Positions 9,101 through 30,042 of a stretch of 30,914 nucleotides of DNA are shown here, piece by piece. The notes below the pieces were generated by a model, which saw nothing but the letters and a program-made list of their open reading frames with translations, had not been told where the DNA came from and searched no databases. Where the stretch lies: IMG/VR virus record IMGVR_UViG_3300047354_001209, positions 1 through 30,914 of that record. One strand, written 5' to 3'. The stretch's first letter is position 1. Every line of letters starts with the position of its first letter. Origin of the DNA: a virus. The position numbers and the translations under genes are program-made.

Positions 9101-9702
9101 CATATGGTGCAAAAATAAATGCAATTAAATCTATAAGTGACGATGTAGTTTACCATCCTGGTAGATATAAAGTACTGTTTGGTAGCAGAGCAAATGATAG
9201 TTTACAAACAATATTCAAAATTGTAAAAAACAGTGCATTGGTAACAAACGAAAATGAATTAAAGTCAGAAATTGTTCAAGCAGTTGATGCATTTTTTGAA
9301 TTAGAAAATTGGGACTTTGGAGAAACTTTCTTCTTCCAAGAATTAAGTTCATACATAATGAATAAATTATCTCCAAAATTAAGATCAATAATTGTTGTTC
9401 CAAGACAAAAAGATCAAGTATTTGGTAGCTTGTTCCAAATTAAATCAGAAATGGATGAAGTTTTTATAAGTGATCTAAAAGTTTCTGATATTGAAGTCAT
9501 AGATGAACTTACAGCAAGTAGCTTGCAAGCAACAGGTACGGTAATTACAAGTGCAGATGCAGGTGTTACAACAAACACTGTATCAGCAACAAGCACTACA
9601 ACATCTACAATCACTAATAGTTCAAGTAGCTCAAGTAGTTCAAGTAGTTCAAGCAGTTCAAGCTCAAGTAGCGGCAGTAGCAGTGGAGGTAGTGGTTACT
9701 AA
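6157..9702 (+). CDS. 6: gp6-like baseplate wedge subunit, enlarged
   Basis: A 1181-residue protein; T4 gp6 has 660. The N-terminus is strongly gp6/J-like: a W-K-R-I-Y-Q-S-F segment, DNLRRTMITYLRNNYPEDF, DLIAFLGQNISFRVDLNARE and NFLETAERRESILRLARML at residues 30-105. Near the C-terminus, residues 1040-1090 (IVQAVDAFFELENWDFGET then LSSYIMNKLSPKLRSIIVVP) match the terminal module common to gp6 and gpJ proteins. The extra 500 residues lie mainly in the middle (about 450-1000), with beta-rich sequence and acidic DDDDNGVFDDPE at about 825-837. gp6 dimers form the iris-like ring linking neighbouring wedges. The final 27 residues are Ser/Gly, including 18 consecutive serines. A good ribosome site (AAGGAAG) lies 7-13 nt before the ATG. 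The stop overlaps the next start by one base (TAATG). Confidence 0.9.
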   Translation: MSTVDRQSRLLVAEDWKRIYQSFRNADFQSYDFDNLRRTMITYLRNNYPEDFNDYIESSEYLALIDLIAFLGQNISFRVDLNARENFLETAERRESILRLARMLSYNPRRNQAANGLLRIDTVRTTENVLDSSGLNLGNITVKWNDNKNANYFEQFTKIVNAALPKTNKVGNPLKNATIENVQTSQYRFNATNVSQAIFPFSKSIEGVSTRFEVVSSTLQGENIVEEAPLPGVSPAFLFRDDGQGVASSNTGFFMHFRQGKIQDGTFSLATPVPNQTVAIDAEKINDTDVWLYEIDSNGVELDQWTKLEAIKGNNIIYNSLFNNIRKVYSVSTRIGDRINLVFSDGVFGDLPSGNYKTYFRSSDSLIGTITPAAMGNIEVVIPYQSVTGSQETLTLTLKLAAPVTNGSASESNNEIRQNAPAAFYIQNRLITAEDYNLGPLQVSQDIIKTKSVNRVSSGISRYFDLKDATGKYSNTKIFAEDGVLYKEYFNKTQDFVFGSQSDIEGLIVNTLEPIIKSNSVKNFYYDKFPKINAEDLNAAWSNVKTATNEITGYFLDVNSSPLPVGLSFTTNNLKLIEVGALLKFKAPAGKHFMVKNNQNILMDGEADHRDSKTYLYATVDSIVGDGTTIQQNGKGPITFKTIVPDGAILKQIIPSLSKIFTDDIKVQIIDKMFAYKNFAIRYDYATDREWKLILSENVNSVGNFSLGKTGDISGQNLDSSWIINLTTDGQKYIITHRNARYNFESANEVKFFFDSADKIYDPSSGKTFRDTITVLNINTKPDELTPFNYDLRWLIDDAYRDAEGYIDTRKLQLTFLDDDDNGVFDDPEVFEEIVKPETNVSTKYIFQKRYVTTDGVESFKYIDNIAGEVTVVTNEAGIAPYSSRTEGQIFYLIEEAVFKILNKSANNTEITTEYKAFIGRDKLKFSYSHVADSNHRIDPSVSNIIDTFVLTNSYDTAMRNYISSTTALLPIPPSNDELFRTYGAKINAIKSISDDVVYHPGRYKVLFGSRANDSLQTIFKIVKNSALVTNENELKSEIVQAVDAFFELENWDFGETFFFQELSSYIMNKLSPKLRSIIVVPRQKDQVFGSLFQIKSEMDEVFISDLKVSDIEVIDELTASSLQATGTVITSADAGVTTNTVSATSTTTSTITNSSSSSSSSSSSSSSSSSSGSSSGGSGY
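9619..9672 (+). repeat. Ser-codon microsatellite encoding 18 consecutive serines
   Basis: Eighteen serine codons in a row (residues 1155-1172 of the gp6-like protein), built from near-repeats of TCAAGTAGT with AGC/AGT changes. A Gly/Ser tail GSSSGGSGY follows. The purine-rich glycine codons GGAGGT at 9685-9690 also form the ribosome site of the next gene, so the tail has a double role. The synonymous mixing suggests age or selection against perfect repeats. Confidence 0.85.
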
Positions 9703-12700
9703 TGGCCAATCAAGACAAACTTAATGACAGTCCAGTTCCTTTGAGCAATAATAGCAAAAGGCAGGCAAAAGATTTACTACCACGCTTTTTTAGGACTGCG
9801 GCAAATGAAAAGTTTTTACAAGGTACAATTGATCAACTTGTACAACCAGGTACAGCAGAAAAAATTAATGCTTATGCTGGAGAAAAATACACAAAGTCAA
9901 AACAACCAAACGATACCTTTTTACCAGAAGTAAGTAAAATTAGAGAAGACTACCAGTTAAGTCCTGCATTAGTATATGAAGATAAACTGAAAAATGTAGA
10001 ATATGTTAAAGACTATATTGACTTTATAGGAACTACAGAATTTTTTGGCGGCGAAACAGTCAACCATTCAAAGTTAAATGAGCAACAATCCTATGCATGG
10101 AATCCAAATATTGACTTTGATAAATTTACAAACTTTAGAGAATATTATTGGTTACCTCAGGGACCACAGTCAGTTGATATATTTGGCCAAAGTATAGAAA
10201 TAGAAAGCACCTACACAATCAAAACAGTTGTAGATGATGATAATACTGCATATGTGTTTAACGGATTAGTAGAACGCAATCCTTCATTAAGTTTATATAG
10301 AGGCCAAACATACAAATTTGAAATAGATTCTCCTGGGCATCCAATTGCATTTAGTTTAAGTAGATCATTTTTGCCAGGTACTGCTATTATCACAGCAGGC
10401 AAAGAGGGTATAAAAGCCGACGGCGCATTTGATTCTCAAGTGTATGGCGCAACTAATTATGACATAGGTGAATTTATTGTTTTACCTCAAAGCGGAAGTG
10501 TTACTTTTGACGATGCAGAAAATGTTTCAACACTTTATACTGACGGTCAGCGTAAATTAGGTGAAGAAGGCGAAGAAATAACAAATGTGTATATTGAAAA
10601 AGGCACAATTGTATTTACAGTGCCTGAAAATGCTCCAGACAGACTTTTTTATGTAAGCAAAAATGCAGAAGATACAAGCGGCTTATTTAGAATATACAAT
10701 ATTGAAGATGCAACACAGATTAATGTTGAAAAAGAAATACTAAACAAAAAGGCTTATACCAGTAGCAATTCAGTGCAATTGTCAAATGGTATGAAAGTAA
10801 AATTTAGAGGACAAGTTACACCGGCAATGTACGGTGAAGGCGAATGGTACATAGAAGGTGTAGGCGATGCTATAAAAATTGTTAGCACAGTTGACCTTGT
10901 ATCTGCCGCTGAATTTTATAATGATAAAAATATTGCGTTTGATACAGATGCTTTTGATACAAACCCCTTTTCCAATGCACTTTCATATCCTGAATCAAAA
11001 GATTATATTGTTTCAAACAGAGGAAGTATTGATAGAAATCCCTGGGCACGTAACAATAGATGGTTTCATAAAAGTGTAATCGAAGAAAGTTTACGCCTAA
11101 ACCATTTACCAGATACATTTGATCAGAGCGGAAGAGCTTCCCGTCCTATTATTGAATATGATGCAGGACTAAAATTATATAATTACGGCGTATTAGCTAA
11201 AAAAGACGTAGACTTAATTGATACATTTACTACAGATGTTTTTAGTACAATTGAAGGACAGATTGGTTATAACATAGACGGAATTGATCTTGCTGAAGGT
11301 ATGCGTATTCTTTTTACAGCAGACAATGACATATTAGTAAAAGGTAAAATTTACGAAGTTAAATTTATTACTATAGGCGAAGGTCAAAATGTTAAAAGAC
11401 AAATTAGTTTAGTTGCACCTGCAGATACAAATCCTGTGGATTTAGAATTAGTATTTGTTACTAACGGTTTAAAAAATATTGGTAAAACATATCATTATCA
11501 CGGTGACGCTTGGCAAGTTGCGCAAACAAAAACAGATATTAATCAATATCCTATGTTTGAATTGCATTTTGAAAATCTTACTGATGCAGAGATGCAAAAC
11601 TTTAAAGGTACTAATATTATTTCTTATAAAGAAGGTACCGGAGCAATTGATAGTGAATTAGGAATTGCACTTAGCTATAAAAATATTACTAATAGTGGCG
11701 ATATACAATTTAATTTTAATCTACTTACTGATTCATTCTTAGTAGAAAATGAAGATCCTGAATTATCGTTTACACAAAGAACAGATACTGCATTTTTAAA
11801 AATATACAAATCTATTAATGATTTTGATTATGCTAACGGTTGGAGTAGTGATAGTGTATTAACAAAGCAATTTGTTTGTAAAGAATACACAGCACAACCA
11901 ATACAGCTTAACAACTTTGAAATATCGCAGTATACTAATCCTGCAGATATTACAGATTTAAAAATTAAAGTTTTTAAGAATCACGAATTTAAATTACGCG
12001 ATGTAGACTATACAATTACAACAATTAACAAAGCACAGTTTATAACATTTACAAAAGACTGTGAAGTTAACGACCAGATTAAAATAAGTGCATTTAGTAA
12101 TACTGTAAATGCTAACGAAAATGGCAAATACGAATTGCCTATTAACTATGTTTCAAATCCTAACAACTTAGATGTGTCAACATTTACTTTAGGCGAAGCA
12201 ATTGACCACGTTGGTACTACAATAGAAGATATTGAAGGTTACAATGGTGTATTTCCCGGCACAAGCAATCTACGAGACTTAGGGAACTATAGTAAACACG
12301 GCAAGCGTTTTATCAAACACTCTGCTCCTTTATCATTAGCACACTACCATTTAACTAATAAAAAGTATAATATAATCAAAGCACTTGATTACGCTGAGAA
12401 TGAATACATAAAGTTTAAAAGAATTTTTATTGAAACTGCAAGTAACTTAGGATTTGACGGTCCGTTGCTTACACACTTTGATAAAGTAATGGAAGCTCTA
12501 AACGCTGATAAAATTACTACAGCACCATTTTACTTCTCAGATATGATAAGTTATGTTGGCGGCAAAAAGCAAACATACGAAGTATTGGATGCCAGAATTA
12601 AAGATTATCCATTACAAAATGTTTTCAACTTAGATTCTATAAGCACACGTTCAGTGTATGTTTACTATGAAGGTGAGCAATTAGTACACGAAAGAGATTA

Positions 12701-15700
12701 TGATTTTAGTAATAGTGGCTTTGTAACTATACTTAAAGATATTCAAGCAGGCAAAACAATTGAGGTTATGGAATTTGATCTGTCAGACGGTAACTTTGTT
12801 CCGCCTACGCCTACTAAGTTAGGATTGTTTCCAAAATATTATCCTGCATTAGTAATTGATGATACTTACCAAACTGAAAAAGCACAAGATAATGTTGCTT
12901 ATCAGATATATGGCGAGGTAGCATCAGAACAGAAAGCATTGCGTGATGTAAGAAATGATCCACCAGAGCTTACTGAAGCTGAAAAGGTCGAAGGTAAAAA
13001 AGGCTATCACTGGCCAGTGTTTAAAAATGAAAGTGCGGCAGCGGCAGCAGATAGCAACGGAGAAGTAATTAAGATTTACTTTACAGGAATGAGTATTCCT
13101 GTGTTTATGCCAAAAAGCACAGCAAGTTTTGTAAATCAAATTTCACCAGATTATGAAATATATCCAAACGGAGTGCCTTTTATAAGAGGACACGACGGTA
13201 GTATGGTAAGAGCTTACCAAGACTATAGAGATGACTTATTAATAGAATTAGAAAAGCGTATTTACAACAACATTAAAATTAAGTACGATACAGACTTTTT
13301 TGATATTGATGATTATTTGTCAGGTGCATTTAGAAAAAATAGATTTAGTTATGACGAAAACAATTCGTCAATGCTTGCAAGTTTTTCAAAATGGTTGAGA
13401 TTAGTAGATAATGATTATACTGATGCAAGTTTCTATGATAGAAATAATCACTTTACATTTAACTATAGTAATTCAAATGCTCCTAATGGCGACATGCTAC
13501 CAGGATTTTGGAGAGGCGTTTACACTTACCTATTAGATACAGACCGCCCACATAGTCATCCTTGGGAAGTATTAGGATTTCATGATAAACCAAGATGGTG
13601 GGACAAAACATATGGTGAAGGTCCTTACACAAGTGATAACCTTATTTTATGGGAAGATTTGCAAGAAGGTATTGTTAGAGAGCCTGGCAAAGAAATAAAA
13701 ATACGTAACAAATATAAGCGTCCAGGATTGTTAAAATCAATACCGTCTGATTCAAATGGTAATTTAAGAAGTCCAATTGAAAGTAGTACAGCTAAAAACT
13801 TTATTACAAGACAAGCTACTCAAAGTTATAAATTTGGTGACATAGCACCTGTAGAAAATGCATGGCGCAAAAGTTCAGGATATGCGTTTGCAGTAATACG
13901 TTCTATGCTTGTAAATAATCCTGCAAAAACTTTTGCATTAGGATTTGATAGATCACGTATCAAAAAGAACCTTGCAAATCAAATAATTTATACTCAAACT
14001 AATAAACCAATTAGTATGAATTCTCTTGTTTTTCCAAACACACAAAAAGATAACACAAGAGTATACACATCAGGATTTGTGAATTACATTTACAATCTAA
14101 TTGCAAGTGACATATTACAAGTATACAAAGATTACCAAAACGAAGTTACAAACATAGATACTAAACTTGTTTTACGACTTGCTGGATACAGTGATACTAA
14201 TAAATTAAATATATTAATTGATAGTAGAAGTCCTACCAGAGCACAACAAGGCGGAATATATCTGCCTAAAGAAAACTATAAAGTAGTTTACAATAAAAGT
14301 AATCCTATACAAACAATTAGCTATAGTGGTGTTGCAATACAAAAAGCACCAGATGGATTTATTATTAGAGGTTATACAGACATACAGCCTTACTTTGAAT
14401 ACTTCGATAAAGTTGATACAAACACACTTAATTCAATTACTGTTGGAGGAATAAGTGAGACGTTTAGTGCATGGGAAGCAGGCAGTCGTTATACAGATGG
14501 ACAAATAGTAGAATTTAATAATACGTATTACAGAGCTACAAAAAGTTTTACAGCCGGCGAAACATTTGATACAGATAACTTAGCAAAACTACCAAGTGGC
14601 TTACCAATTGTAGGCGGAAAAACTGCAACCATTGCAAAAGCATTTGATAAAAAAGTTGTAAAAAGACTTGCATATGGTGAAAAACTTAAAACCAGTCAAC
14701 AAGTAGTTGACTTTCTGTTAGGCTACGATGCAAGACTAAAAGAATTAGGATTTTCTTTTAACTATGTAAGCGGCGCAGGACAAGTTGAAACTTGGCGCAA
14801 AGCAATAGAAGAATTTTTATTCTGGACTACACAAGGTTGGGCCGCAGGTACAGTCATTACACTTTCGCCAAGTGCAAATGAATTAGAATTTAATCCACCA
14901 ACAGTGGGTAATGTTGATAACTTATATGACGACTTCTATGATTATAGCATAGTTGATAGTGCAGGTCAACCATTAGATAAAGAATTTGGTAATTTAGTTA
15001 GAGCAGGAAATAGCTTTGGACTTACTGTTCAAGAAACTGACAACGGAATATACGGAATAATATTACCTATAGTACAGCATGAACATATTGTTGTATTTGA
15101 CAATGTAACATCATTTGATGATATTATATACCAACCAAGAACAGGTTACAGACAAGAAAGACTTAAAATAATTGGATACAGAAGTGACGACTGGGATGCC
15201 AGTTTAAATGTTCCTGGATTTATATTTGACGAAGCAAAAGTTGTTGAGTGGCAGGCTTACAAAGATTATGTAATTGGACAACTTGTAAAGTATAAAGAAT
15301 TTTATTATGTTGCTACAGCAAATGTGCCTGGTAACGCAACCTTTAATGACCAAAATTATTTTAGGCTTAACGAAAAGCCTGAAGCTGAATTGCTTACAAA
15401 CTTTGATACAAGAACAAACCAGTTTGCAGACTTTTATGATGTAGACACAGCAGGATACGATAGTGAGCTACAAAAAATGGCTCATCATTTAATCGGCTTT
15501 CAAAAACGTGAATATTTGTCAAACATTGTAATTGACGATATAAGTCAATATAAATTCTATCAAGGAATGATACAAGAAAAAGGTACGCAGAATGCCTTGA
15601 CAAAATTGTTTAGTAGATTAAACACACAAGAAAACGTAGACAGTTTAGAATTTTACGAAGACTGGGCATTACAGATAGGTAGATACGGTGCCTCTGAAAG

Positions 15701-18700
15701 TTACGATCAAATTGAAATTGATATTAAACAAGAAAACTTGCAGAACACTCCTCAGATTGTTAAACTTACAAATAATGTACCACCGACAAATGTTGAAAAA
15801 ACTTATTATGTAAAAACATCAGACTTGAACGATAGACCTGCACATTTTGATATTGATAATACATTTGAAGAAAACGCAAATGTTAACCGTTATATTGATA
15901 CTACAGGTAATGTACACGAAAGTGATGTGCAATTTATTGCTGGCGACAAGCAACAACTTACAACCGGCAATGTTAATTTATTAAAACTAAATGATTACAT
16001 TTGGACACAAGGTAACGACAGTGAAGATTGGAATGTATATCAACATATTGAAACAGCGGCGCAAGCAACTAACGGTATTTTAGAGCAAGTTGAAAATCGT
16101 GAAGGTAATATCATTTATACTTTAACATTAGATACCTTAGCAAGTACAGTTGCACAAAAAGGTGATCTTGTTGGTATATTAAATGCTGGCGAATTTCTTG
16201 TTAACGGAATATATGAAGTAAGCAGAACAAGTCTTAAAACGATTGATATTATTGTAAATGAAGATTCAGACTTACTTAATTTTGCAGGGCAAAAGTTTAG
16301 ACTGACTAAGTTACGCTCAGTTAGATATGAAGAGCTTTCAGACATTGATATTTTTGGTCGCAATACTTTTTACAAAAATCAAAAAATATGGATCAATAAC
16401 TTTGCAGGTGATTGGAATGTATTACGCCACAACGAAATATGGTCAAAAAAACAGGAAGTAAAAAATCATTTACCAGACACAGGTGACTATGAAAACTTTG
16501 CAAGATACGTTGTTGCAGATAGAGATAACAGAAATGTATTTGTAAGTGCAGAAGGACAAGGTAACGGACAAGTAAACTTTTACAAACGCACAAAAGAGAA
16601 TTTTGATTTAACACTCGATCAAGAAATTACGTTCGACGAAGAATATTTAGATACAACGTCTACAGACTTTGGCGCAAGCATAGATGTAAGCCCAGACGGA
16701 GAATATCTTGCAGTTGGTATGCCCGGCGCAAGTGCTGTAAAAACTCGTTACAAAGATACATTTGACGAAACAGCAACTTATACAAAAAATGATATAGTAA
16801 AATATAGAGAACAACTTTGGCAGGCAGTAAGACAGATTAACCCAAGAGTTGATCAGCAAGCATTTACTACATTTGATAGTTATAGTTTGATGATTTCAAG
16901 ATCTGATACAGACAGTACAGATTTAAATTTATTATTAGCAGGTAATCCAGGACTTAATAATACAACAGTAGATCATATACTTGTTAGAGCACCATTTGAT
17001 ATGTACATAGGTACAGTTGCAGGTGACAGAATAAACTTAGCATGGAATAGTAATAGTTTTGCATATCCTACTTTAGACACGTTTACTCCTTTTAACGGTG
17101 ACATACCTTATATTACAAAAGAATTAATTACGTCAGAGTTTGAAATTCAAGCTAAAATTGACCATGTATTGTTGATTGAAACATTTGTTGCATTACCTAC
17201 TGTTGGGCAACGTGTTACTACAGACACAGGCAGTGGTACTGTGTATTATGTAGATACATCAGGCGACAGTGCAATAATTTATATAACCGATGTAAACGGC
17301 GAATTAAGTGCAAGAGGTGAGTTGTTTATTGAAGAACTTGATTTTGTTGGGTTTTACGATGAAACAAACACACTAAGCACAAGTGATGCAATAGGTGGAT
17401 ACTTCTTCCTTAACACTCCTCTGTCATACAGTAACGGTAACAATCAAATTGACAAAGGCCAAGGTTTAGTTTATGCAGATATTAGACAAGCCGGCGAAAC
17501 AGATCCTGTAAACGATTATTACAATATTCAAGATACAGTGGCTGAGGTTGGACCATATGTCACACAGAAAAACAATGCAAGTTTTGTAACACATCTTAGT
17601 TATAGAGGTGATCCGGGCGGCACTGTTGAAGGACCACAATTAAGTAAGTTTTACCTTGTAAAACTACCTAAAGTCTTTAGTGATGCTTACTATGCAGAAA
17701 ACTTTGACGGCAATGGAGACATAATTACCGATCCAAGAGCATATGAATTAAGATTCTTCCAACATGCAACAAGTGCAGATCTTATAGCTAAAGGTTTTTC
17801 AACTAAAGAGTTAATGAATAAAAGTGTGCAAGCATATGACTTGTGGGACGGATACATTGACTTTACATTTGACAATTTTGATTTTTCTGGAAATGCTTTT
17901 GAACCTGTAGCAAAATATGTTGAAGACAGTAGTGGTAATTTAACAATTAATCCGAACGGTGGAGATATTATTGAAGATATACAAACACCAAGAGATGGAT
18001 TAGGCGGCTTAGCACTTACCACACAATCAACAAGTACAGCAGAAGTTATGTACTTTAGAAGACAGTTTAACACTGTAAGAGTTTACATAAAAATTAAAAC
18101 TGGTACGTGGGAAGAGTTAAACAACATCGGTAGATATCAAATACGTAGAACTTCCAATGAAACATTGCGCTCGCCAGGTGATGTTAATATCACAATGGGT
18201 ACAGTAGCAGATTTTGACAATGATGTTATTGTTGAAAGAGATCCTATTGGTAAACTTATGGTATTAAGAGCTGAGAATAATTTTGATATTGTAGACGATC
18301 CTGAAATTAAAGATAACGAATATTATTTCTTCAACGAAGAAACTATTTTAACAGGTGCATCAAGACCTGCCAATCCACCATATTCAACAAATAAAGATTA
18401 TAGAAAATTATACCACTTACCTGCAGATCCTGCAGGAACAGAAGGTCCAAGTGAAGAAGGCGCAGTTGCAATTTATAGACGTTTGCCACAAGGCACTTAT
18501 GCACTAAGCAAATTTTTTGTAAGTGAGTATAGAACAGCTGGTAGAAGATTTGGATCACAGGTTAAATTTGTACAGCAGGATAATTATTATACTCTTGTTG
18601 TAGGTACAAAACCTATACCTGGTGAAGATGATTTAATAAATCAATTTGCAGAAAGAGATAATCCTGGATCATTAGAATTTTATAGACACGGCACATTGCC

Positions 18701-21700
18701 AACTGATGCTTTCAAAGGTGAGTTCAAACTTACTACATACGAAAGAGGCGATATTGTAATTTATAAAGATGATTACTATAGAGCTAACAAAGATGTCAGT
18801 TCAGCATTAGCAAACTCTAATACTATTTTAAACAATATATTTTGGACAAACATAAGTTGGAAATCTGGCAAGGACGAAAACTATCAAGGTGAATGGGAAA
18901 ATAGTTACCCATATGCCTTAGGAGACATTGTACATAATCAAGGACAGTTATACAAAGCAAAAACTAATCTTAGTGCAGGTCAAGCATTTAGTACAAATGC
19001 ATGGGCTAACATAGAAAGTAATATTGATTATGTAGGACTTATTCCAAATAGGTCTGGATTGACATTTTACACAGACGAAACAATTTATGATCCACAAGCA
19101 AACATACTAAACTTTGCGAGCAGTTTTGATATTAGTGATAATGGACAAGTTATGGCCATCATTGCTAAACAGTCATATGCAGATAGTACAGCAAACAGCG
19201 TACTATTAATATATAGACAAACTGATGATAAGTTTATGTTGCACCAAACAATAGAGGCTCCAAGCACTGAAACAATATTCAATCCTTTCTTACAAGAAAT
19301 TGTTGAAAGTTCTCGTTATAGAGGATACTATGGCGCACTAACAGAAGAAGATAGTTCTTTTGATGCAAGTGTTACAGAAGGATTGTCTATTGCTTACGAA
19401 GCAGGAGACATTGTACAGTACAAGCGTTCATACTACAAATCAAAACAGAACATGGTTATCGGCGATGTGATGAGAACAAGTGCATTTGGTGATAGTGCAG
19501 GCGCATACGAAGTTGCATTTGACATTACTAAGTGGGAAATAATTCCTAAAGAGTTAAGAGTTGTATCAGGGGAATGGGGATCTGCAATAAGCATCAGTCC
19601 AGATGGCGATACCGTTGCAGTTGTTGCTCCGTCAGATGATACATTTGGAGCAAACCAAGGCGTAGTTTATATTTACGAGTTAAGCAACGGAACATTTGCA
19701 CAAAGCCAAGTAATACGTGCCCCTGGCAACGAAGAAAGCGAAGGATTTGGTACAGACGTTTCAATAACTGATAATTCATTAGCAGTAAGTTCAAGAAACG
19801 GTGATCAAATTATCAGCACAACATTTGACGAAAGTGCAACAGTATTTGATAGTAAGTTTACTGTGTTTAATAATGTTAAGTTAGACACTGGAGTAGTAAC
19901 AGTTTATGAAAAAGTAAATGATACATTTATATACTCTGAACAATTACAATTTAAGAATGCACAAACTGCATTTGGTGAGGTTCTAAACAATAACAACAAT
20001 CACATTTATGTAAGTATGCCTGATTATCAAAACAGTGATTTAAGTTTTGGTATATTCTTAGATTATAGAAAACCAAAAAATACAGTAAGTTGGAGTGATC
20101 TTAGAAGTAAATCAGGACAAGTTGATCTTAATAAAATTCAAGGTATTGTGCTGTACAACAAACGTGAACACAGAATAGAAACTTATATTGATTATATTGA
20201 TCCTGTACAAGGTAAAATAGCAGGCCCTGCAGATCAAGAAATAAAATACAGAAACCGTACTGATCCTGCATTATATAATGTAGGTGCGTTGAACAACTTG
20301 CGTGTTAATACTTCACAATTTTGGGGCGAAGAACACGTTGGCGAAGTTTGGTGGGATATTTCAAAAGCAAGATTTACTGAACCTTACCAAGATTCAGACA
20401 TTTGGCAAAGCGATAATACAAACACACTTTCACAAGTATCATCCATACAATTATACGAGTGGGTAGAAAGTAATTTCCTACCTGCACAATGGAACGAACT
20501 TTCTGGTACAGCAGATGGATTGGCATTAGGTATTACAGGTAATGCTCCATTTGGCGATACACAGTATAGTAGCTCGTTAGTTTATGATCAAGTAGCACAA
20601 AACTTTAGTAACAAATATTACTTCTGGGTGCAAAATAAAACTACTATTCCAAATGTATCGTTTAGAAAAATTAGATTAGATGATATAAAAAATCTTATAG
20701 CCGCTCCAAGGGAAAACGGTTATAGATATATTAGTTTCTTAAACAAAAATACATTATTGTTAAACAACTTTAAACAGTTGATTACTAATGATGATATGAC
20801 TCTTCAAATACGATACAAGAACATTGAAGACCAAGATCAAAATAGACACACACAATATCAAATTGTTAGTGAAGGTTTAGTTAGAGATGGACTTAATGTT
20901 GATATTGAAAGAAAATGGTTTGATAGTTTAGTTGGTATTGACTACAATGGTAAAAAAGTACCAGATACTAACATACCAATGAACCATAGATATGGCGTAC
21001 AAAATAATCCACGCCAGAGCATGTTTAAAAATAGAAACGAAGCAGTTAAGCAAGTTATAGAAAGAATTAATTCAGTTGTTGAAAATTATACAATAGTAGA
21101 TAACTTTGATATTAGTCCGCTAAACAAATCGCAACCTGCTCCTACTATTCAAAGTAGAATATATGATTTAGCAATTGACACATATGAAGATTTAACTTTT
21201 GTTAGTACAAACAAAGTTACACAAGCTAAATTATCACCGGTTATTACTAATGGTAGAATTGTAGCAGTAAATGTTACTGAATCCGGCAGAGGTTATAAGA
21301 CTGCACCAACAGTTGAGATTGTAGGATCTGGTACTAATGCAGAAATTAGAACTGAAATAAACAATTTAGGTCAAGTTACTGGTGCAACTATTGTCAACAA
21401 CGGTGAAGGTTATTTACAATCTACTACACTATTTGTAAGAAGATTTACTGTACTAATTAGATCAGATGCTTCAAACTTTAACAAATGGGCATTATATACA
21501 TATAATGAAATAGACAAAAGATGGTTTGTTTCCAAAACACAAGATTATGACGTAAGCAGTTTCTATGAAACTATTGATTGGTATGCAGAAGGATATAATC
21601 AATTTACTAAAGTAGACAATGTAATAAAAGGTACTTACGAATTTGGCAGTATTACTGATTGGATCGGACAAACAGTTAAAGTTGAAAACATTGGATCTGG

Positions 21701-24700
21701 TGGTTGGACATTATTTGAAAAAATAGATAGTCAAGATACAAATGACTTTACTGTAAATTATAAAACTATTGGTAGAGAAAATGGAACTATCAAATTTAAA
21801 GATACATTATACAATGTAGGTTCACGTGTTGGTTTTGATTCAAGAAGTTTTGATACATATTTCTTTGATAACATTCCACAGACTGAATTACGTTTAATTT
21901 TAGAAACAGTCAGAGATAACATCTTTATAGGTGATCTAAAAAATGAATACAACAAATTATTCTTTGCAAGTGTAAGGTATGCGATTGCAGAGCAAATAGA
22001 TATTGATTGGGTCTTTAAAACAAGTTTTGTATCAGCCACACATAACTTAGGTGGGCTAAAGAAAACACCAACATTTAAAAATGATAACTTAGATGATTAT
22101 GAAAGTTATGTACAAGAAGTTAAACCTTATAAAACTAACATACGTGAATATGTAAGCAAGTATACAGAAGTAGAGCCTACAAACAGTGCAATGTCAGACT
22201 TTGACTTACCACCAGAGTATAATACGTTTGATAAAAAGATTATGCCGTCGAGAGCATCCATTATTGACGGTGTAGTACAAGACGGCGAAGACAACTTACA
22301 ACAGTATCCAAGAAAATTCTGGACTGACAACAATGGATTTAAAGTTGTCAAGATAGAAATTAAAAATGGTGGTAGCGGATATGTTACAAAACCTAAAGTA
22401 ATGATAGAAAGTGCTACTGGTACAGGCGCTGCCGCAGAAGCATCAATCGGATACGGCAAAGTTACAGGTATTACTGTAACATACAAAGGAGATGGTTACA
22501 AGTCACCTCCAACAGTTAGCTTTATGGGCGGTAATGGCGATGGTGAAAACGCAACAGCATATGCTATATTAGGTGAAGGCGTTGTAAGAACTCCGCATAT
22601 TAGAGTTAAGTTTGATAGAACTGACTTTAATTATTACTTCTCAACACTACAGCATACAGAAACATTTACAGGTACACAATTTGAAACAAGATTTGACCTT
22701 AAATGGCCAATGGATACACAAAAGACAAAAGTTATTGTAAAACTAAATGGCGTAGAGCAATTAAGAAGCAAGTATACTTTTGAAAACATTACAAATACTA
22801 CAGCTGGTTATACAAGAGAGCAAGGACGTATTACATTTACTACTCCTCCTGCACTTAATGATGTTATAAGTGTTGAGTATTATAAGTCACAAGATTTATT
22901 AAAGGCTACAGACAGAATACAGTTTGCATATGATCCGTTAACTGAAATGTACGGCAAAGACCTTGCTCAACTTATGACTGGTATTGATTACGGTGGAGTT
23001 GAAGTTAAGAGTTACGGTTTTGAAGGCATTAGTGGATGGATGAATGATGCATACTTTGTAGACTCATGGGATAACTTTGATAACACATACGAAGACGAAG
23101 TATTTACAGCAGACGGAAGTACAATTGCTGTGCAATTATCACAACCACTTGCAGACAACGTTGATTACAACATTTATAAAAACGGCGTAAGAATTGACGC
23201 ACCTGATTTTGTAAACGGAAGTTCTCCTACTAATGTAAATGCAGTTTGTAAAGGACCAAGAGGCGATGGCTCTACCCAAGTAATTTACTTAGACGAATTA
23301 AACATTGAACTGTTAGACGGCGATGTTTTAATTGTAAGAAAAATTACAAGTGACGGTAGCATACTTCCTGACTCACAGAGCTTTGATACACAGTTGAAAG
23401 GCGGAGACTTACCTTACAATAGTGCAAAAGGTGTTGACGCTGGAGAAATAATTGTAGATGGTAGCGGATTTATTGATCCGAAAAATATAGGACCAGAAGA
23501 ATTTGTTCCAGGCACAGTATTAGATACTTTAGATATTAAAGTGTATACTAACAAAAGCAAAGGTCAAGGTAGAATCTTTAGTCAAAGTTACTTAATGGAT
23601 TCTACAAATACTTTTAGCCTTGGTGTAGTTCCTGCTACAATAGATAATGTAATTGTAAAAGCAAATAATATTATATTACCTGCGACAGATTACACATTTG
23701 ATTATACTGTTACTCCTCCTACAATTACAATTGATTCAAGCAAAATAGTTGCAGGACAAGAACTAAACATAATTTCGCAAGAAGCAGGCGTACAAAACAT
23801 TATAACATTTGGAACGTTTACTACAGACGGAAGTACAACAGCGTATGACACTGGAATAACATATAATAGTGATTACACTGTGTTTGCAACACTAAATGGA
23901 GTTGTAGAACCAGACGTTACAACAGTAGATACAAATGGTATTTTATATATAGCACTACCTGAAGAAACTGCACAAGATCACAAGTTAAGTTACATTGTAT
24001 TTTCAAATGACACAGAAGTAAACTACAGTCAAGCAAAAATTGATAACTTTGTAGCAGGCGCCTCGCAAACAACATATACGTTGCCACAAGCACCGTTTTA
24101 TGCACCTCCTGCACAACATAACACTATTGTAAAAGTAGATAATGTTATTTTAAATCCAGGTTATAATATACAATATACAATACCTGCAAACAACCAACGT
24201 GAATATGTGTTAGAAACATTCCAGCAACCACCAGGTAGTAATGCGGCTGAAGATTTAAAAGTCTTTATTAACGGTGAAGAAATATTTACACCTATACAAT
24301 GGAGATTTGATGTTGCAAACAGTTCTATTGTATTAAGTGATGAATACGGTATACCGGGTGATATTATTGAAATATTTGTTATTACAGATGGTGAATACAT
24401 ATACAACGGAGCAAACTTAATTCTCAACACAGCACCTACAGAAGGACAAAGTGTTTCTGTATACCAATATAGTAATCATAATATTGTAGGTATTGAAAGA
24501 ATTAATTACGATGTTATCAAGCGTGACACAATTTTGCCAAATACTGTAGATTATCAAAAGTATAACAGGCTTACAGACGGCGAAGTTCCATTAAGAGGCA
24601 AAGCAGTAGATGCACAATATGTATTTGTAAGCATCAATGGTGAGCTTTTGACACCAAGTGTTGATTTTAGTTTACACGAAGATAGAGACAAAATACAAAT

Positions 24701-25448
24701 AGCAAGGCCAGTATCGCAAAACGATGTTATTGACATTATGCATTTTTCAAGTGATGTAAGTGTTACTAACTTTGCGTTTAGACAGTTTAAAGACTTGTTA
24801 AACAGAACACATTATAAGCGTTTGGATGCCGCAGTTGCTACATTGACACAGCCATTAGGACTTACAGACTTGCGTATATATTGTGATACATCACATTTAC
24901 CTACGCCAAGCAAAGAAAAAAATGTGCCTGGTGTTGTGTTTATTGACCAAGAGCGTATTGAATACTTTGTTAAAGAAGATGGTATGATAAGACAGTTACG
25001 CAGAGGTACATTAGGTACTGGTGCAAAAGCACATCCTGTAGGTTCAGAAGTATTTGATCAAAGCATTGGTAAAACAATACCGTACAAGGATGTAACTTTT
25101 GAGAATAGGTTTACAACAGATGGTATTACAAATGATTTTGATTTAACATTCAATATTGAAAGCATTAACGAAATAGAAGTTTTTGTTGCTGGCAAGCGTT
25201 TACGTAAAGCAGATATACAAGTGTATAATCCTGAACTTGCAATGGATAGCCCAGCAGGCGACGAAACAATACCAGCAGAATTTAGTGTTAATACCACACT
25301 TAATACTGTCACTATAAACACTTTGCCAGCAGAAGGACAAAGGGTTATAGTAATTAAGAAAACGTTGACAGAGTGGTCAGCGTCCGGCGAACAGCTGGGA
25401 TTAGCAGAAAATAGTGTCGCAAGATTCTTACGAGCAGGCGCTTACTAA
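9702..25448 (+). CDS. Giant multidomain baseplate/tail-fibre protein, 5248 residues
   Basis: One intact frame of 15.7 kb with no internal stop; roughly 0.58 MDa at 110 Da per residue. It starts at TAATG overlapping the gp6 stop, with GGAGGT at 9685-9690. Order of parts: residues 1-160, conserved N-terminus with LLPRFFRTAANEKFL and YYWLPQGPQ; 183-331, cupredoxin-like but lacking metal ligands; 446-457, NPWARNNRWFHK; 860-1010, a helical block (GKRFIKHSAPLSLAHYHL...YAENEYIKFKRIF); 1281-1302, DRPHSHPWEVLGF and PRWWDKTYG; six chitin-binding-like modules (1589-1631, 1850-1889, 2351-2395, 3008-3055, 3061-3105, 3227-3285); an FG-GAP-type propeller, 2266-3470; GxGY repeats, 3845-4290; beta modules with DGST turns, 4467-5240; and a QERIEYF...RRGTLGT motif at 5083-5107. 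Proteins with this N-terminal region follow gp6 in marine T4-like phages, the slot T4 uses for gp7 (1032 aa). I found only about four cysteines. A role in host-surface contact is inference. Confidence 0.85.
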   Translation: MANQDKLNDSPVPLSNNSKRQAKDLLPRFFRTAANEKFLQGTIDQLVQPGTAEKINAYAGEKYTKSKQPNDTFLPEVSKIREDYQLSPALVYEDKLKNVEYVKDYIDFIGTTEFFGGETVNHSKLNEQQSYAWNPNIDFDKFTNFREYYWLPQGPQSVDIFGQSIEIESTYTIKTVVDDDNTAYVFNGLVERNPSLSLYRGQTYKFEIDSPGHPIAFSLSRSFLPGTAIITAGKEGIKADGAFDSQVYGATNYDIGEFIVLPQSGSVTFDDAENVSTLYTDGQRKLGEEGEEITNVYIEKGTIVFTVPENAPDRLFYVSKNAEDTSGLFRIYNIEDATQINVEKEILNKKAYTSSNSVQLSNGMKVKFRGQVTPAMYGEGEWYIEGVGDAIKIVSTVDLVSAAEFYNDKNIAFDTDAFDTNPFSNALSYPESKDYIVSNRGSIDRNPWARNNRWFHKSVIEESLRLNHLPDTFDQSGRASRPIIEYDAGLKLYNYGVLAKKDVDLIDTFTTDVFSTIEGQIGYNIDGIDLAEGMRILFTADNDILVKGKIYEVKFITIGEGQNVKRQISLVAPADTNPVDLELVFVTNGLKNIGKTYHYHGDAWQVAQTKTDINQYPMFELHFENLTDAEMQNFKGTNIISYKEGTGAIDSELGIALSYKNITNSGDIQFNFNLLTDSFLVENEDPELSFTQRTDTAFLKIYKSINDFDYANGWSSDSVLTKQFVCKEYTAQPIQLNNFEISQYTNPADITDLKIKVFKNHEFKLRDVDYTITTINKAQFITFTKDCEVNDQIKISAFSNTVNANENGKYELPINYVSNPNNLDVSTFTLGEAIDHVGTTIEDIEGYNGVFPGTSNLRDLGNYSKHGKRFIKHSAPLSLAHYHLTNKKYNIIKALDYAENEYIKFKRIFIETASNLGFDGPLLTHFDKVMEALNADKITTAPFYFSDMISYVGGKKQTYEVLDARIKDYPLQNVFNLDSISTRSVYVYYEGEQLVHERDYDFSNSGFVTILKDIQAGKTIEVMEFDLSDGNFVPPTPTKLGLFPKYYPALVIDDTYQTEKAQDNVAYQIYGEVASEQKALRDVRNDPPELTEAEKVEGKKGYHWPVFKNESAAAAADSNGEVIKIYFTGMSIPVFMPKSTASFVNQISPDYEIYPNGVPFIRGHDGSMVRAYQDYRDDLLIELEKRIYNNIKIKYDTDFFDIDDYLSGAFRKNRFSYDENNSSMLASFSKWLRLVDNDYTDASFYDRNNHFTFNYSNSNAPNGDMLPGFWRGVYTYLLDTDRPHSHPWEVLGFHDKPRWWDKTYGEGPYTSDNLILWEDLQEGIVREPGKEIKIRNKYKRPGLLKSIPSDSNGNLRSPIESSTAKNFITRQATQSYKFGDIAPVENAWRKSSGYAFAVIRSMLVNNPAKTFALGFDRSRIKKNLANQIIYTQTNKPISMNSLVFPNTQKDNTRVYTSGFVNYIYNLIASDILQVYKDYQNEVTNIDTKLVLRLAGYSDTNKLNILIDSRSPTRAQQGGIYLPKENYKVVYNKSNPIQTISYSGVAIQKAPDGFIIRGYTDIQPYFEYFDKVDTNTLNSITVGGISETFSAWEAGSRYTDGQIVEFNNTYYRATKSFTAGETFDTDNLAKLPSGLPIVGGKTATIAKAFDKKVVKRLAYGEKLKTSQQVVDFLLGYDARLKELGFSFNYVSGAGQVETWRKAIEEFLFWTTQGWAAGTVITLSPSANELEFNPPTVGNVDNLYDDFYDYSIVDSAGQPLDKEFGNLVRAGNSFGLTVQETDNGIYGIILPIVQHEHIVVFDNVTSFDDIIYQPRTGYRQERLKIIGYRSDDWDASLNVPGFIFDEAKVVEWQAYKDYVIGQLVKYKEFYYVATANVPGNATFNDQNYFRLNEKPEAELLTNFDTRTNQFADFYDVDTAGYDSELQKMAHHLIGFQKREYLSNIVIDDISQYKFYQGMIQEKGTQNALTKLFSRLNTQENVDSLEFYEDWALQIGRYGASESYDQIEIDIKQENLQNTPQIVKLTNNVPPTNVEKTYYVKTSDLNDRPAHFDIDNTFEENANVNRYIDTTGNVHESDVQFIAGDKQQLTTGNVNLLKLNDYIWTQGNDSEDWNVYQHIETAAQATNGILEQVENREGNIIYTLTLDTLASTVAQKGDLVGILNAGEFLVNGIYEVSRTSLKTIDIIVNEDSDLLNFAGQKFRLTKLRSVRYEELSDIDIFGRNTFYKNQKIWINNFAGDWNVLRHNEIWSKKQEVKNHLPDTGDYENFARYVVADRDNRNVFVSAEGQGNGQVNFYKRTKENFDLTLDQEITFDEEYLDTTSTDFGASIDVSPDGEYLAVGMPGASAVKTRYKDTFDETATYTKNDIVKYREQLWQAVRQINPRVDQQAFTTFDSYSLMISRSDTDSTDLNLLLAGNPGLNNTTVDHILVRAPFDMYIGTVAGDRINLAWNSNSFAYPTLDTFTPFNGDIPYITKELITSEFEIQAKIDHVLLIETFVALPTVGQRVTTDTGSGTVYYVDTSGDSAIIYITDVNGELSARGELFIEELDFVGFYDETNTLSTSDAIGGYFFLNTPLSYSNGNNQIDKGQGLVYADIRQAGETDPVNDYYNIQDTVAEVGPYVTQKNNASFVTHLSYRGDPGGTVEGPQLSKFYLVKLPKVFSDAYYAENFDGNGDIITDPRAYELRFFQHATSADLIAKGFSTKELMNKSVQAYDLWDGYIDFTFDNFDFSGNAFEPVAKYVEDSSGNLTINPNGGDIIEDIQTPRDGLGGLALTTQSTSTAEVMYFRRQFNTVRVYIKIKTGTWEELNNIGRYQIRRTSNETLRSPGDVNITMGTVADFDNDVIVERDPIGKLMVLRAENNFDIVDDPEIKDNEYYFFNEETILTGASRPANPPYSTNKDYRKLYHLPADPAGTEGPSEEGAVAIYRRLPQGTYALSKFFVSEYRTAGRRFGSQVKFVQQDNYYTLVVGTKPIPGEDDLINQFAERDNPGSLEFYRHGTLPTDAFKGEFKLTTYERGDIVIYKDDYYRANKDVSSALANSNTILNNIFWTNISWKSGKDENYQGEWENSYPYALGDIVHNQGQLYKAKTNLSAGQAFSTNAWANIESNIDYVGLIPNRSGLTFYTDETIYDPQANILNFASSFDISDNGQVMAIIAKQSYADSTANSVLLIYRQTDDKFMLHQTIEAPSTETIFNPFLQEIVESSRYRGYYGALTEEDSSFDASVTEGLSIAYEAGDIVQYKRSYYKSKQNMVIGDVMRTSAFGDSAGAYEVAFDITKWEIIPKELRVVSGEWGSAISISPDGDTVAVVAPSDDTFGANQGVVYIYELSNGTFAQSQVIRAPGNEESEGFGTDVSITDNSLAVSSRNGDQIISTTFDESATVFDSKFTVFNNVKLDTGVVTVYEKVNDTFIYSEQLQFKNAQTAFGEVLNNNNNHIYVSMPDYQNSDLSFGIFLDYRKPKNTVSWSDLRSKSGQVDLNKIQGIVLYNKREHRIETYIDYIDPVQGKIAGPADQEIKYRNRTDPALYNVGALNNLRVNTSQFWGEEHVGEVWWDISKARFTEPYQDSDIWQSDNTNTLSQVSSIQLYEWVESNFLPAQWNELSGTADGLALGITGNAPFGDTQYSSSLVYDQVAQNFSNKYYFWVQNKTTIPNVSFRKIRLDDIKNLIAAPRENGYRYISFLNKNTLLLNNFKQLITNDDMTLQIRYKNIEDQDQNRHTQYQIVSEGLVRDGLNVDIERKWFDSLVGIDYNGKKVPDTNIPMNHRYGVQNNPRQSMFKNRNEAVKQVIERINSVVENYTIVDNFDISPLNKSQPAPTIQSRIYDLAIDTYEDLTFVSTNKVTQAKLSPVITNGRIVAVNVTESGRGYKTAPTVEIVGSGTNAEIRTEINNLGQVTGATIVNNGEGYLQSTTLFVRRFTVLIRSDASNFNKWALYTYNEIDKRWFVSKTQDYDVSSFYETIDWYAEGYNQFTKVDNVIKGTYEFGSITDWIGQTVKVENIGSGGWTLFEKIDSQDTNDFTVNYKTIGRENGTIKFKDTLYNVGSRVGFDSRSFDTYFFDNIPQTELRLILETVRDNIFIGDLKNEYNKLFFASVRYAIAEQIDIDWVFKTSFVSATHNLGGLKKTPTFKNDNLDDYESYVQEVKPYKTNIREYVSKYTEVEPTNSAMSDFDLPPEYNTFDKKIMPSRASIIDGVVQDGEDNLQQYPRKFWTDNNGFKVVKIEIKNGGSGYVTKPKVMIESATGTGAAAEASIGYGKVTGITVTYKGDGYKSPPTVSFMGGNGDGENATAYAILGEGVVRTPHIRVKFDRTDFNYYFSTLQHTETFTGTQFETRFDLKWPMDTQKTKVIVKLNGVEQLRSKYTFENITNTTAGYTREQGRITFTTPPALNDVISVEYYKSQDLLKATDRIQFAYDPLTEMYGKDLAQLMTGIDYGGVEVKSYGFEGISGWMNDAYFVDSWDNFDNTYEDEVFTADGSTIAVQLSQPLADNVDYNIYKNGVRIDAPDFVNGSSPTNVNAVCKGPRGDGSTQVIYLDELNIELLDGDVLIVRKITSDGSILPDSQSFDTQLKGGDLPYNSAKGVDAGEIIVDGSGFIDPKNIGPEEFVPGTVLDTLDIKVYTNKSKGQGRIFSQSYLMDSTNTFSLGVVPATIDNVIVKANNIILPATDYTFDYTVTPPTITIDSSKIVAGQELNIISQEAGVQNIITFGTFTTDGSTTAYDTGITYNSDYTVFATLNGVVEPDVTTVDTNGILYIALPEETAQDHKLSYIVFSNDTEVNYSQAKIDNFVAGASQTTYTLPQAPFYAPPAQHNTIVKVDNVILNPGYNIQYTIPANNQREYVLETFQQPPGSNAAEDLKVFINGEEIFTPIQWRFDVANSSIVLSDEYGIPGDIIEIFVITDGEYIYNGANLILNTAPTEGQSVSVYQYSNHNIVGIERINYDVIKRDTILPNTVDYQKYNRLTDGEVPLRGKAVDAQYVFVSINGELLTPSVDFSLHEDRDKIQIARPVSQNDVIDIMHFSSDVSVTNFAFRQFKDLLNRTHYKRLDAAVATLTQPLGLTDLRIYCDTSHLPTPSKEKNVPGVVFIDQERIEYFVKEDGMIRQLRRGTLGTGAKAHPVGSEVFDQSIGKTIPYKDVTFENRFTTDGITNDFDLTFNIESINEIEVFVAGKRLRKADIQVYNPELAMDSPAGDETIPAEFSVNTTLNTVTINTLPAEGQRVIVIKKTLTEWSASGEQLGLAENSVARFLRAGAY
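10248..10694 (+). other. Cupredoxin-like domain in the giant protein, copper ligands lost
   Basis: Residues 183-331 of the giant protein. The opening AYVFNG...NPSLSLYRGQTYKFEID with GHPIAFS (His213) and the closing GTIVFTVPENAPDRLFY follow the layout of cupredoxin-like domains in marine phage structural proteins ('NP.l.l.RG..Y.F....HPf' and 'VP..AP..LYY.C..H..M.G'). Where the Cys-x-x-His-x-x-Met copper site would come, the sequence reads VSKNAEDTSG, so copper binding is unlikely. The domain is probably structural. The fold call rests on pattern only. Confidence 0.5.
16497..20111 (+). other. Seven-bladed FG-GAP-type beta-propeller with large insertions (in giant protein)
   Basis: Seven units open with F/W-G/A-x-x-h: FARYVVAD (2266), FGASIDVSPDGEYLAVG (2323), FGSQVKFVQ (2950), FASSFDISDNGQVMAI (3138), WGSAISISPDGDTVAVV (3292), FGTDVSITDNSLAVS (3349) and FGEVLNNNNNHIYVS (3424). 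Each has a later 'G.v..Y.r...f...q.i' half: GQVNFYKR, GAVAIYRR (2920), GSLEFYRH (2989), NSVLLIYRQ, GVVYIYELSNGTF, GVVTVYEKVNDTF and FGIFLDYR. The halves of blade 2 are separated by about 570 residues. The blade count is mine and untested by structure prediction. Confidence 0.5.
21234..22571 (+). repeat. GxGY beta repeats in the giant protein
   Basis: Four copies of 'hNxGxGY...P.V...G.G' occur at Tyr3865 (SGRGYKTAPTVEIVGSG), Tyr3904 (NGEGYLQS), Tyr4227 (GGSGYVTKPKVMIESA) and Tyr4266 (KGDGYKSPPTVSFMGG). They come as two pairs separated by about 320 residues. Each pair alternates with a 'G.vt.i.v...G.GY' connection. This repeat class is frequent in phage tail fibre and spike proteins. It is probably a repeated beta-sandwich or beta-roll element; the function is unknown. 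Confidence 0.6.
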
Positions 25449-25467: not shown

Positions 25468-26079
25468 ATGAAACATATGGATGATAACATGCAAGATAAG
25501 AACGGTGTATTAGTCCAAGGGCATATTAAAATATTTGACCCTGAGACAAAAGAAATTTACATAAACAAAAGAAATGCCATTCATTACGAGAATATGAGTA
25601 TTGCTCTTGCAGACAGCTTGTCTAACCAGGGTGAAGGCTTTATTTACGAAATGAGTTTTGGCAATGGTGGAACAAGCGTTGATCCAACAGGGATTATTAC
25701 TTATTTGACACCTAACAACACGGGTGCAAACGCTACTCTTTATAACCAAACGTATACTAAAGTTATAGACGATCGTAGTGCAAATAACACCGATCCAACA
25801 AGAAATAAATTAGAAACAAGACATATAAGCGGTGTTAATTATACTGATATTGTTTGTACTTGTCTTTTAGATTACGGTGAGCCGCAAGGACAGCAAGCAT
25901 TTGACACTGCAACTGATGCAGACAATGCATTTGTATTTGACGAATTAGGTTTAAGAAGTTATGATCCTAATAGTACAGGAAGATTAATTACCCATGTAAT
26001 TTTCCATCCTGTTCAAAAGTCATTAAACAGACTTATACAAATTGATTATACTGTTCGTGTACAGAGTTTGTCAGGTTAA
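25468..26079 (+). CDS. Conserved phage structural protein of unknown function
   Basis: 203 residues; I cannot assign a T4 homologue. The middle has GFIYEMSFGNGGTSVDPTG, then YTKVIDDRS, a Cys-Thr-Cys segment (DIVCTCLLDYGEP, about 130-142), and AFVFDELGLRSYDP. The C-terminus THVIFHPVQKSL...RLIQIDYTVRVQ reads as two closing beta strands, as often seen in tail-fibre and collar-type proteins. No signal peptide or membrane segment is present. It lies between the giant gene and the fibre paralogs in the same late run, so an adaptor or fibre-attachment role is plausible but unproven. Start choice is uncertain: three in-frame ATGs (25468, 25477, 25489) give 203, 200 or 196 residues, and none has a clear Shine-Dalgarno sequence. 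The next gene follows after 13 nt. Confidence 0.8.
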   Translation: MKHMDDNMQDKNGVLVQGHIKIFDPETKEIYINKRNAIHYENMSIALADSLSNQGEGFIYEMSFGNGGTSVDPTGIITYLTPNNTGANATLYNQTYTKVIDDRSANNTDPTRNKLETRHISGVNYTDIVCTCLLDYGEPQGQQAFDTATDADNAFVFDELGLRSYDPNSTGRLITHVIFHPVQKSLNRLIQIDYTVRVQSLSG

Positions 26080-28156: not shown

Positions 28157-30036
28157 TGGCATATCAATTAAACAAAACAGACGGAACACTACTTACAGAT
28201 CTTGTAGATGGCCAAATAGATAATACTACAACTAATCTTGTATTAGTTGGTAGAAACTACTCAGGTTACGGTGAAGCATTTAACGAAAACTTTATCAAAT
28301 TACTTGAAAATTTTGCAAATACTGCGGCACCTACAAATCCGATGACAGGACAAGTTTGGTGGAATTCGTCAGAACAAAGATTAAAAGTCTATGACGGAAC
28401 GCAATGGAAAGCATCAGGCGGTCCATTTGTGCAAAACACACAACCAAGTATGGTTGCAGGTGACCTTTGGATTGACAACTTAAACAACCAGTTGTATGCT
28501 TTTGACGGAGCAGATTTAATACTTGTTGGACCGTTGTATACAGAAAACCAAGGAACAAGTGGATTTGTTGTATCAAGTATACTTGACGAACAAAGTAGAT
28601 CACGTACAATTGCTAATATGTATGTAGGTGGAACACTTGTTGCAGTAATGAGTGCTATTGAGTTTACACCAATCTTTAGTGAGCGTATATCAGGATTAGT
28701 TACAGCAACCAATCCAACAGGTACAATTTTCCAAGGTATAAATGTTATTGATAAAGTTAACTTTAAGTTTTATGGTAACTCGGAAAGTTCCAACGCTTTG
28801 ATTACAGGTACTGGAGCAGTTAGAACAGCTGACCAGTTTCTTCCATCGGATGCAAATGGTGTTACAGTTGGTACACTTACAATTCAAAACTCAGGTGGCT
28901 TAACACTTGGTTTGTCCCAAAACCATGTACAAAAAATTGTAGGACCAAGAGTTTACTTTGAAAACCAATTACTTGATCATGACATTAGTTTTAGATTACG
29001 TTCAAGTGCTGAAGGAAGTACAATTATTGATGCAATGTATTTTGATGCATCAACAAAGAAAATTGGTATATTTAATAACACTCCTGCACATACTTTAGAT
29101 ATTACTGGTGATTTGCGTGTAACAGGCAACTTACTTGTAGAAGGTGAACGTTCAAGTTTAGAAGTAACAACACTTAAAGTACAAGACAAAAATATTGAAC
29201 TTGGTATTGTTGATGACAGTACAGAAGCATCAGAAAGCACCTTAGATGGCGCAGGTATTATTGTAAGAGCTACAGAAGGTAGTAAAGACTTTGCTTGGAA
29301 CTTAGCAAATAATGCATTTACTTCTAATGTAAATATGGATTTATCACGCACACAAGATGCGTATAAAATTGGCGGACAAGACAAACTTACAAACACAAGT
29401 TTGACAAACGTACAAAAGGCACTTGACCTTGATGAAATAGGCACACTTTCATACTTAAACGTTGATAACGTAAGCATTGACAGTGCAAGTATATCATCAA
29501 GTCTTGCAATGACAATAGGTTCTACAGGCGGCATGGCTATAAATGCAGATGGCGATATAACTGTAGACAGCAATAAAATTAAAGGTGTTGCAGATCCTGT
29601 AGACGCACAAGACGTAGCGACTAAGAATTATGCAGACACTAAAACAGCAAATGAAAATATTGTATTTTCGTTTGATATTACTGGATTAGGCACAGGAGTT
29701 ACATTGCAAACTGCAATGATAGGATACTTAGCTGATATGTATCCACCAGCCGCTGAAAACAATGGCAAGGAAGCACGTATACATGCTATATCATACGCTT
29801 CTGCTACAGTTTCTGGTATCGCTATTACAGTAACACAAGATCCTGATACGTCAGGTGTTTTGACGCAAAGTAAGTTGGCTGTTGATTCGAACGGCACACA
29901 AAATGAATCTGTAGTCCAAGATATTTCAAACTCAAATACTGCTACTGGTAGTGTTTCGCTTACACCGGTTAGATCATTAATGATCTTTGAAAGTGACGGT
30001 ACAGCGTGGAGTTTTGTATCTTCGAGTACATATTAA
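28156..30036 (+). CDS. Tail-fibre-like protein, second paralog
   Basis: 626 residues. The N-terminal 126 residues match the preceding and following genes: GRNYSGYG, NENFIKLLENFA, GQVWW...LKVYDGTQW and GDLW...QLYAFDG, then LVGP. The similarity continues more weakly to about 290 (NALITGTGAV, LTIQNSGGL). Then comes the fibre motif IGIFNNTPAHTLDITGDLRV with TGNLLVEG, a segment LKVQDKNIELGIV, and DPVDAQDVATKNYAD at 480-494, a motif common in phage tail fibres. The C-terminal 130 residues are beta-rich and end in WSFVSSSTY; there is no tail-collar domain. It is probably a fibre shaft with its own tip. The ribosome site GGGGCAGG lies at 28145-28152. A 42-nt gap with a late-promoter-like element follows. 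Confidence 0.75.
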   Translation: MAYQLNKTDGTLLTDLVDGQIDNTTTNLVLVGRNYSGYGEAFNENFIKLLENFANTAAPTNPMTGQVWWNSSEQRLKVYDGTQWKASGGPFVQNTQPSMVAGDLWIDNLNNQLYAFDGADLILVGPLYTENQGTSGFVVSSILDEQSRSRTIANMYVGGTLVAVMSAIEFTPIFSERISGLVTATNPTGTIFQGINVIDKVNFKFYGNSESSNALITGTGAVRTADQFLPSDANGVTVGTLTIQNSGGLTLGLSQNHVQKIVGPRVYFENQLLDHDISFRLRSSAEGSTIIDAMYFDASTKKIGIFNNTPAHTLDITGDLRVTGNLLVEGERSSLEVTTLKVQDKNIELGIVDDSTEASESTLDGAGIIVRATEGSKDFAWNLANNAFTSNVNMDLSRTQDAYKIGGQDKLTNTSLTNVQKALDLDEIGTLSYLNVDNVSIDSASISSSLAMTIGSTGGMAINADGDITVDSNKIKGVADPVDAQDVATKNYADTKTANENIVFSFDITGLGTGVTLQTAMIGYLADMYPPAAENNGKEARIHAISYASATVSGIAITVTQDPDTSGVLTQSKLAVDSNGTQNESVVQDISNSNTATGSVSLTPVRSLMIFESDGTAWSFVSSSTY

Positions 30037-30042
30037 AATATG

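Follow-up and report, generated by a model that had tools for sequence, protein, structure and literature searches.

In contractile injection systems it is gp7 that keeps the wedge together, yet T4 profiles recognise neither a gp7 nor a gp8 in the RaK2-like jumbo phages. In cyanophages and pelagimyophages, VrlC has been reported to substitute for gp7 and has been linked to double-layered baseplates (PMC7029224). In the Synechococcus cyanophage S-PM2, a protein of 3,048 aa (p084; L105:7073-16219) sits between gp6 and gp8, and a short motif is common to this protein, to a 498-aa protein of Xanthomonas phage X1 and to T4 gp7 (E 2.6e-6 for X1-T4 and 7e-6 for S-PM2-X1, both E-values referring to very small databases). 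By way of X1, p084 thus carries the gp7 core motif, although gp7 has been described as absent from cyano- and pelagimyophages. The statement on VrlC fits S-PM2 poorly, p084 holding the place of gp7 there; the S-PM2 'Virulence Associated' protein p087, located after gp8, is probably VrlC. In phage XM1, finally, the gp7 orthologue holds the tail spikes through loops (PMC10457771).

The window analysed here is the whole of a 30,914-nucleotide virus record from IMG/VR, and this 30.9-kb record probably covers only part of a longer genome. Its genes run in the order gp5-like hub, gp25, gp6, giant, 203-aa protein and three fibre-like proteins (Table 1). The 203-aa companion belongs to phrog_11259 and occurs in ~60 phage records, mostly the same set as those of the giant. 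The 687-aa collar-domain protein is followed by a 626-aa protein and then by an open 278-aa frame. In PA5oct, the gene occupying the first of the fibre positions has a match to a portion of T4 gp10. An N-terminal module that spans ~130 residues and probably serves all of them for docking recurs in the three successive fibre-like proteins (26093-30912). The C-terminus of gp6 is a serine-rich tail, partly encoded by five 9-bp tandem repeats at 9618-9662, just upstream of the giant.

Table 1 Features of the window. Residues are numbered along the giant protein and positions along the window.
Feature	Residues	Position	Strand	Basis or remark
gp5-like hub/lysozyme protein		2826-5645		D-Ala-D-Ala carboxypeptidase (M15_4) peptidase domain in C-terminal part
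gp25-like wedge protein, 146 aa		5657..6097	+	PF04965 E 1.7e-9
gp6-like baseplate wedge protein, 1,181 aa		6157..9702	+	phrog_10646 E 3.8e-278
Giant virion structural protein, 5,248 aa, gp7 position		9702..25448	+	intact ORF, phrog_10938
Conserved core 1	1-1060	9702..12881	+	phrog_10938 E 7.6e-134; blastp, alignment map
Cupredoxin-like domain	166-337	10197..10712	+	VIA-align on predicted structure
Conserved core 2	1130-2350	13089..16751	+	phrog_10938 E 9.7e-95; alignment A2
CBM_5_12-like module	1590-1618	14469..14555	+	PF02839 E 2.4e-7, above Pfam cut-off
Second small CBM_5_12-like module	about 1850-1895	15249..15386	+	structural matches 8fqc, 9rkv
gp7-core-like helix motif, FYQGMIQEKGTQNALTKLF	1941-1978	15522..15635	+	hhalign scans; suggestive only
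Variable middle	2350-3290	16749..19571	+	low occupancy among relatives
CBM_5_12-like	3064-3089	within variable middle		E 2.4e-5, below Pfam cut-off
Conserved core 3	3290-4175	19569..22226	+	phrog_10938 E 3e-75
FG-GAP_2	3297-3325	start of core 3		E 5e-5
GxGY module 1	3849-3923	21246..21470	+	phrog_22827; motifs at 3862, 3901
Possible gp7 HPVGF helix counterpart, YVQEVKPYKTNIREY	4130-4155	22089..22166	+	invariant E4139, K4141, P4142
GxGY module 2	4210-4286	22329..22559	+	phrog_5342 E 2.3e-12
Conserved C-terminal beta domain	5024-5130	24771..25091	+	39% identity to PA5oct
Conserved 203-aa companion		25468..26079	+	phrog_11259
Fibre-like protein, 687 aa, tail collar domain		26093..28156	+	PF07484 E 1.4e-13

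The preliminary description had pointed to a single intact gene filling half of the window at the place of T4 gp7, and both observations held. The frame opens with an ATG, encodes a protein of 592 kDa, occupies 51% of the window and has zero internal stops where ~421 would be expected by base composition in 5,248 codons (log10 P(no stop) = -190); its start codon overlaps the gp6 stop codon in a TAATG junction. GC content at codon positions 1/2/3 is 0.45/0.36/0.21, and substitutions relative to one of its relatives (L075) favour the third position (1995/1648/2758 at positions 1/2/3), from which we conclude that the giant behaves as a translated gene. An assembly artefact was ruled out because intact homologous ORFs of 3,344-5,363 aa were found in 26 full-length relatives. 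Some relatives are longer (5,363 aa in L086 and 5,343 aa in L076), so that the window giant is not the longest of its family.

A search of IMG/VR yielded 67 loci with an N-terminus related to that of the giant, and 20 IMG/VR contigs together with six named jumbo phages made up the full-length set of 26 sequences. Short peptides from the giant C-terminus found no match when searched against IMG/VR; the C-terminus is nevertheless present in relatives. In a PHROGs profile search, the giant matched phrog_10938 over three stretches (E 7.6e-134, 9.7e-95 and 3.8e-58). Judged by sequence, the giant is thus a member of an already known, little-studied family of RaK2-like, T4-related jumbo phages and not a new kind of protein, in keeping with the motifs of large structural proteins that the preliminary description had recognised in its N-terminal third. 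Its homologues adjoin gp6 in PA5oct, Atu_ph07, CBB, Vibrio 2.275.O, Phosso and XacN1, and the order gp25-gp6-giant of the window recurs in those named phages that were inspected; in the Salicola phage SCTP-2, the homologue adjoins a 3,096-aa gene (L007:24272-33562). No host was inferred, since the MAG contigs bearing relatives of the giant fall in unrelated bins.

Virion peptides, whose absence the preliminary description would have counted against its reading, are on record for homologues (those of PA5oct, CBB and phAPEC6) and not for the window giant. The annotation of PA5oct gp355 carries ESI-MS/MS virion detection, 21 virion peptides of CBB_236 were identified by mass spectrometry (PMC5259590), and 17 unique virion peptides were assigned to the 382-kDa gp245 of phAPEC6 (PMC7247149), which we infer to be a homologue because of its size and because its number adjoins that of the baseplate wedge gene gp244. 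PHROGs labels the family 'virion structural protein' under the category 'head and packaging'. The category is a library label and not evidence for a head location; a head or neck protein, which that category would favour, is very improbable given a label that reads only 'virion structural protein' and neighbours that are gp5, gp25, gp6 and fibres.

Conservation extends beyond the N-terminal third, where the preliminary description had recognised motifs; blastp and the alignment map placed it in three cores spread along the chain and in a C-terminal domain, with a second variable region at residues 4200-5000. Alignment A2 (core 2; 26 sequences) contains 38 invariant columns. Core 1 was modelled by AlphaFold (AF2) with a mean pLDDT of 73.5, and its direct profile comparison with T4 gp7, X1 gp7 and gp6 returned nothing. 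A relative of the C-terminal beta domain is present as an insert in the gp7-like protein of S-PM2 (hhalign Prob 94.8, E 5e-8). The mosaic of accessory modules originally described proved largely right: CBM_5_12, FG-GAP_2 and GxGY stretches were recovered, and a cupredoxin-like domain had been missed. The latter aligned with copper proteins at Z about 10 over 98-110 residues (rmsd 2.5-3.5; VIA-align), does not keep the usual Cys/His/Met ligand pattern in its sequence, and is mostly missing from the named phages. It was the only match of the AF2 model of residues 1-1100 in the PDB (Foldseek/VIA), and the matches of the same model in a viral library were mainly homologous giants. The first CBM_5_12-like module was matched in 20 of the 26 family members. 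The second resembles parts of the Agrobacterium phage Milano baseplate (8fqc) and of the phage 7-7-1 fibre (9rkv) at Z about 6 over 41-43 residues, with a weak sequence match to 9rkv. Five alignments of the cores, compared with the sequences of the PDB, returned chitin-binding-like modules only, all other hits being at chance level.

The T4 gp7 profile phrog_964 was not among the PHROGs matches of the giant. Neither this profile nor that of T4 gp8 (phrog_977) matched anything in seven complete or near-complete relatives, comprising six named phages and one contig of 382 kb; T4 served as positive control and was matched. The cyanophage gp8 profile phrog_438 touched the giants only at its GxGY stretch 185-301, outside the gp8 core. 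Evidence bearing on a gp7 core in the giant came from a helix motif at residues 1941-1978, a site originally picked out by eye, of which K1960 and G1961 are invariant in 26/26 sequences of alignment A2. With a mixed gp7 profile it was the top core site (Prob 57.5, E 1e-4, which becomes about 0.01 over the ~136 window-profile comparisons of this first scan; reversed-sequence maximum 1.9%). It was again the top core site with an X1-only profile (35%; reversed-sequence maximum 0.8%) and with a cyanophage-only profile (14%; reversed-sequence maximum 4.3%). The cyanophage profile matched the giant C-terminus more strongly, that match corresponding to the beta domain inserted in the cyanophage protein. 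With a T4-only gp7 profile, the site was not ranked first and its score of 0.9% was not significant.

Two further gp7 anchors were sought. The HPVGF-type element gave a non-significant profile match (3.7% vs 2.0% for the null), and the N-terminal helix-turn-helix of the gp7 bundle scored 2.6% at rank 4/87, with null values of up to 7.7% and only 9.5% for the T4-X1 positive control. An N-terminal LP-F pattern, alike by eye, was statistically not above null and was rejected as an anchor. AF2 modelling of residues 1850-2200 placed helices at the 1941-1978 site with pLDDT below 50, which neither supports nor refutes a gp7 core; the model gave no gp7 fold match, and its best structural matches (Z below 8) were to a beta domain.

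The gp7 role suggested in the preliminary description thus stands in part, with one gp7-core-like site and no gp7 or gp8 profile match in the relatives on the one hand, and a non-significant T4-only comparison and an uninformative fold prediction on the other. Given the conserved gp25-gp6-giant order, the failure to detect gp7 and gp8 in seven relatives, the presence of homologues in virions and the 1941-1978 site, we regard the giant of this RaK2-related jumbo myovirus as reasonably likely to be the functional equivalent of T4 gp7, much enlarged by extensions and by inserts that include cupredoxin-fold, chitin-binding-like, propeller-type and GxGY modules. Counted against this role are the T4-only profile and the other two gp7 anchors, none of them significant, and an AlphaFold model of low confidence at the site without a gp7 fold match. 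In each of the six wedges, a short stretch of helices to which residues about 1941-1978 belong would join two copies of gp6 in the manner of gp7. The extended N-terminal region and the inserts further along would form the outer baseplate body, on which the fibre proteins encoded next could dock; the loops of XM1 gp7 provide a precedent for such inserts. The small carbohydrate-binding-like modules may contact the cell surface, and fibre signals would then travel through the single giant chain to the gp6-gp25 ring and sheath. We infer the wedge role, the fibre docking and the cell-surface contact alike. That the giant replaces gp8 is plausible, since no gp8 could be detected by profile in the relatives; replacement of gp9-gp11 is unproven, and so is a function as an adhesin, an idea drawn solely from the accessory modules.

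A bolder version, possible but doubtful, holds that the giant is itself a true gp7, with two inserts of ~1,900 and ~2,100 residues interrupting its wedge core, one chain making up most of the outer baseplate as the counterpart of T4 gp7, gp8, gp10 and gp11. At the T4 stoichiometry of one gp7, two gp8, three gp10 and three gp11, these proteins sum to 465 kDa against 592 kDa for the giant, an excess that is compatible with replacement and no evidence for it.

The giant, encoded beside gp6, might instead be a peripheral protein, either an elongated adhesin or a platform for fibres, the true gp7 counterpart being an unrecognised smaller gene. Modules of the CBM_5_12-like, GxGY, FG-GAP and cupredoxin-like types do occur in surface proteins, phage fibres among them, and the middle region and residues 4200-5000 are highly variable among relatives. 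We nonetheless consider this unlikely: three long conserved cores are not what a fast-evolving adhesin would display, the place after gp6 is fixed, separate fibre genes lie downstream, and profiles found no other gp7 in the seven relatives. Less likely still is a VrlC-type protein of the outer baseplate layer, added to the wedge and not equivalent to gp7. The reported substitution of gp7 by VrlC and its tie to double-layered baseplates (PMC7029224) would favour such a protein; in S-PM2, however, it is p084 that lies between gp6 and gp8, the probable VrlC, p087, comes after gp8, and the giants resemble p087 in short, weak stretches only.

Returning to the preferred reading of the giant as a gp7 equivalent, no such interpretation of the phrog_10938 family was found in our literature search. 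If the giant is the missing gp7, the build of RaK2-like baseplates becomes directly testable, and a core machine part would be able to take up docking and binding modules within one chain. With T4 gp7 the giant shares its genomic place and possibly, via intermediates, the core helix motif; it is five times longer, is without a significant T4-only profile match, and its core fold is left unsettled by prediction. S-PM2 p084 and the X1 gp7-like protein (498 aa) have the place after gp6, a gp7-core-like motif and GxGY stretches in common with the giant, to which p084 adds a beta domain of the C-terminal type. At the level of sequence, the gp7 core of p084 is clearer than that of the giant; the motif lies near the N-terminus in p084 and the X1 protein but at residue 1960 in the giant, and gp8, which follows in S-PM2, was not found in the RaK2-like relatives. 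The members of phrog_10938 (PA5oct gp355, CBB_236, Atu_ph07 gp180 and those of RaK2-like phages) share with the window giant the post-gp6 locus, homologous conserved cores (~24-30% identity to those of the named phages) and giant size. Compared to the about 3,340-4,555 aa of the named-phage members, the window giant reaches 5,248 aa and harbors longer variable regions as well as the cupredoxin-like insert that is mostly missing from them.
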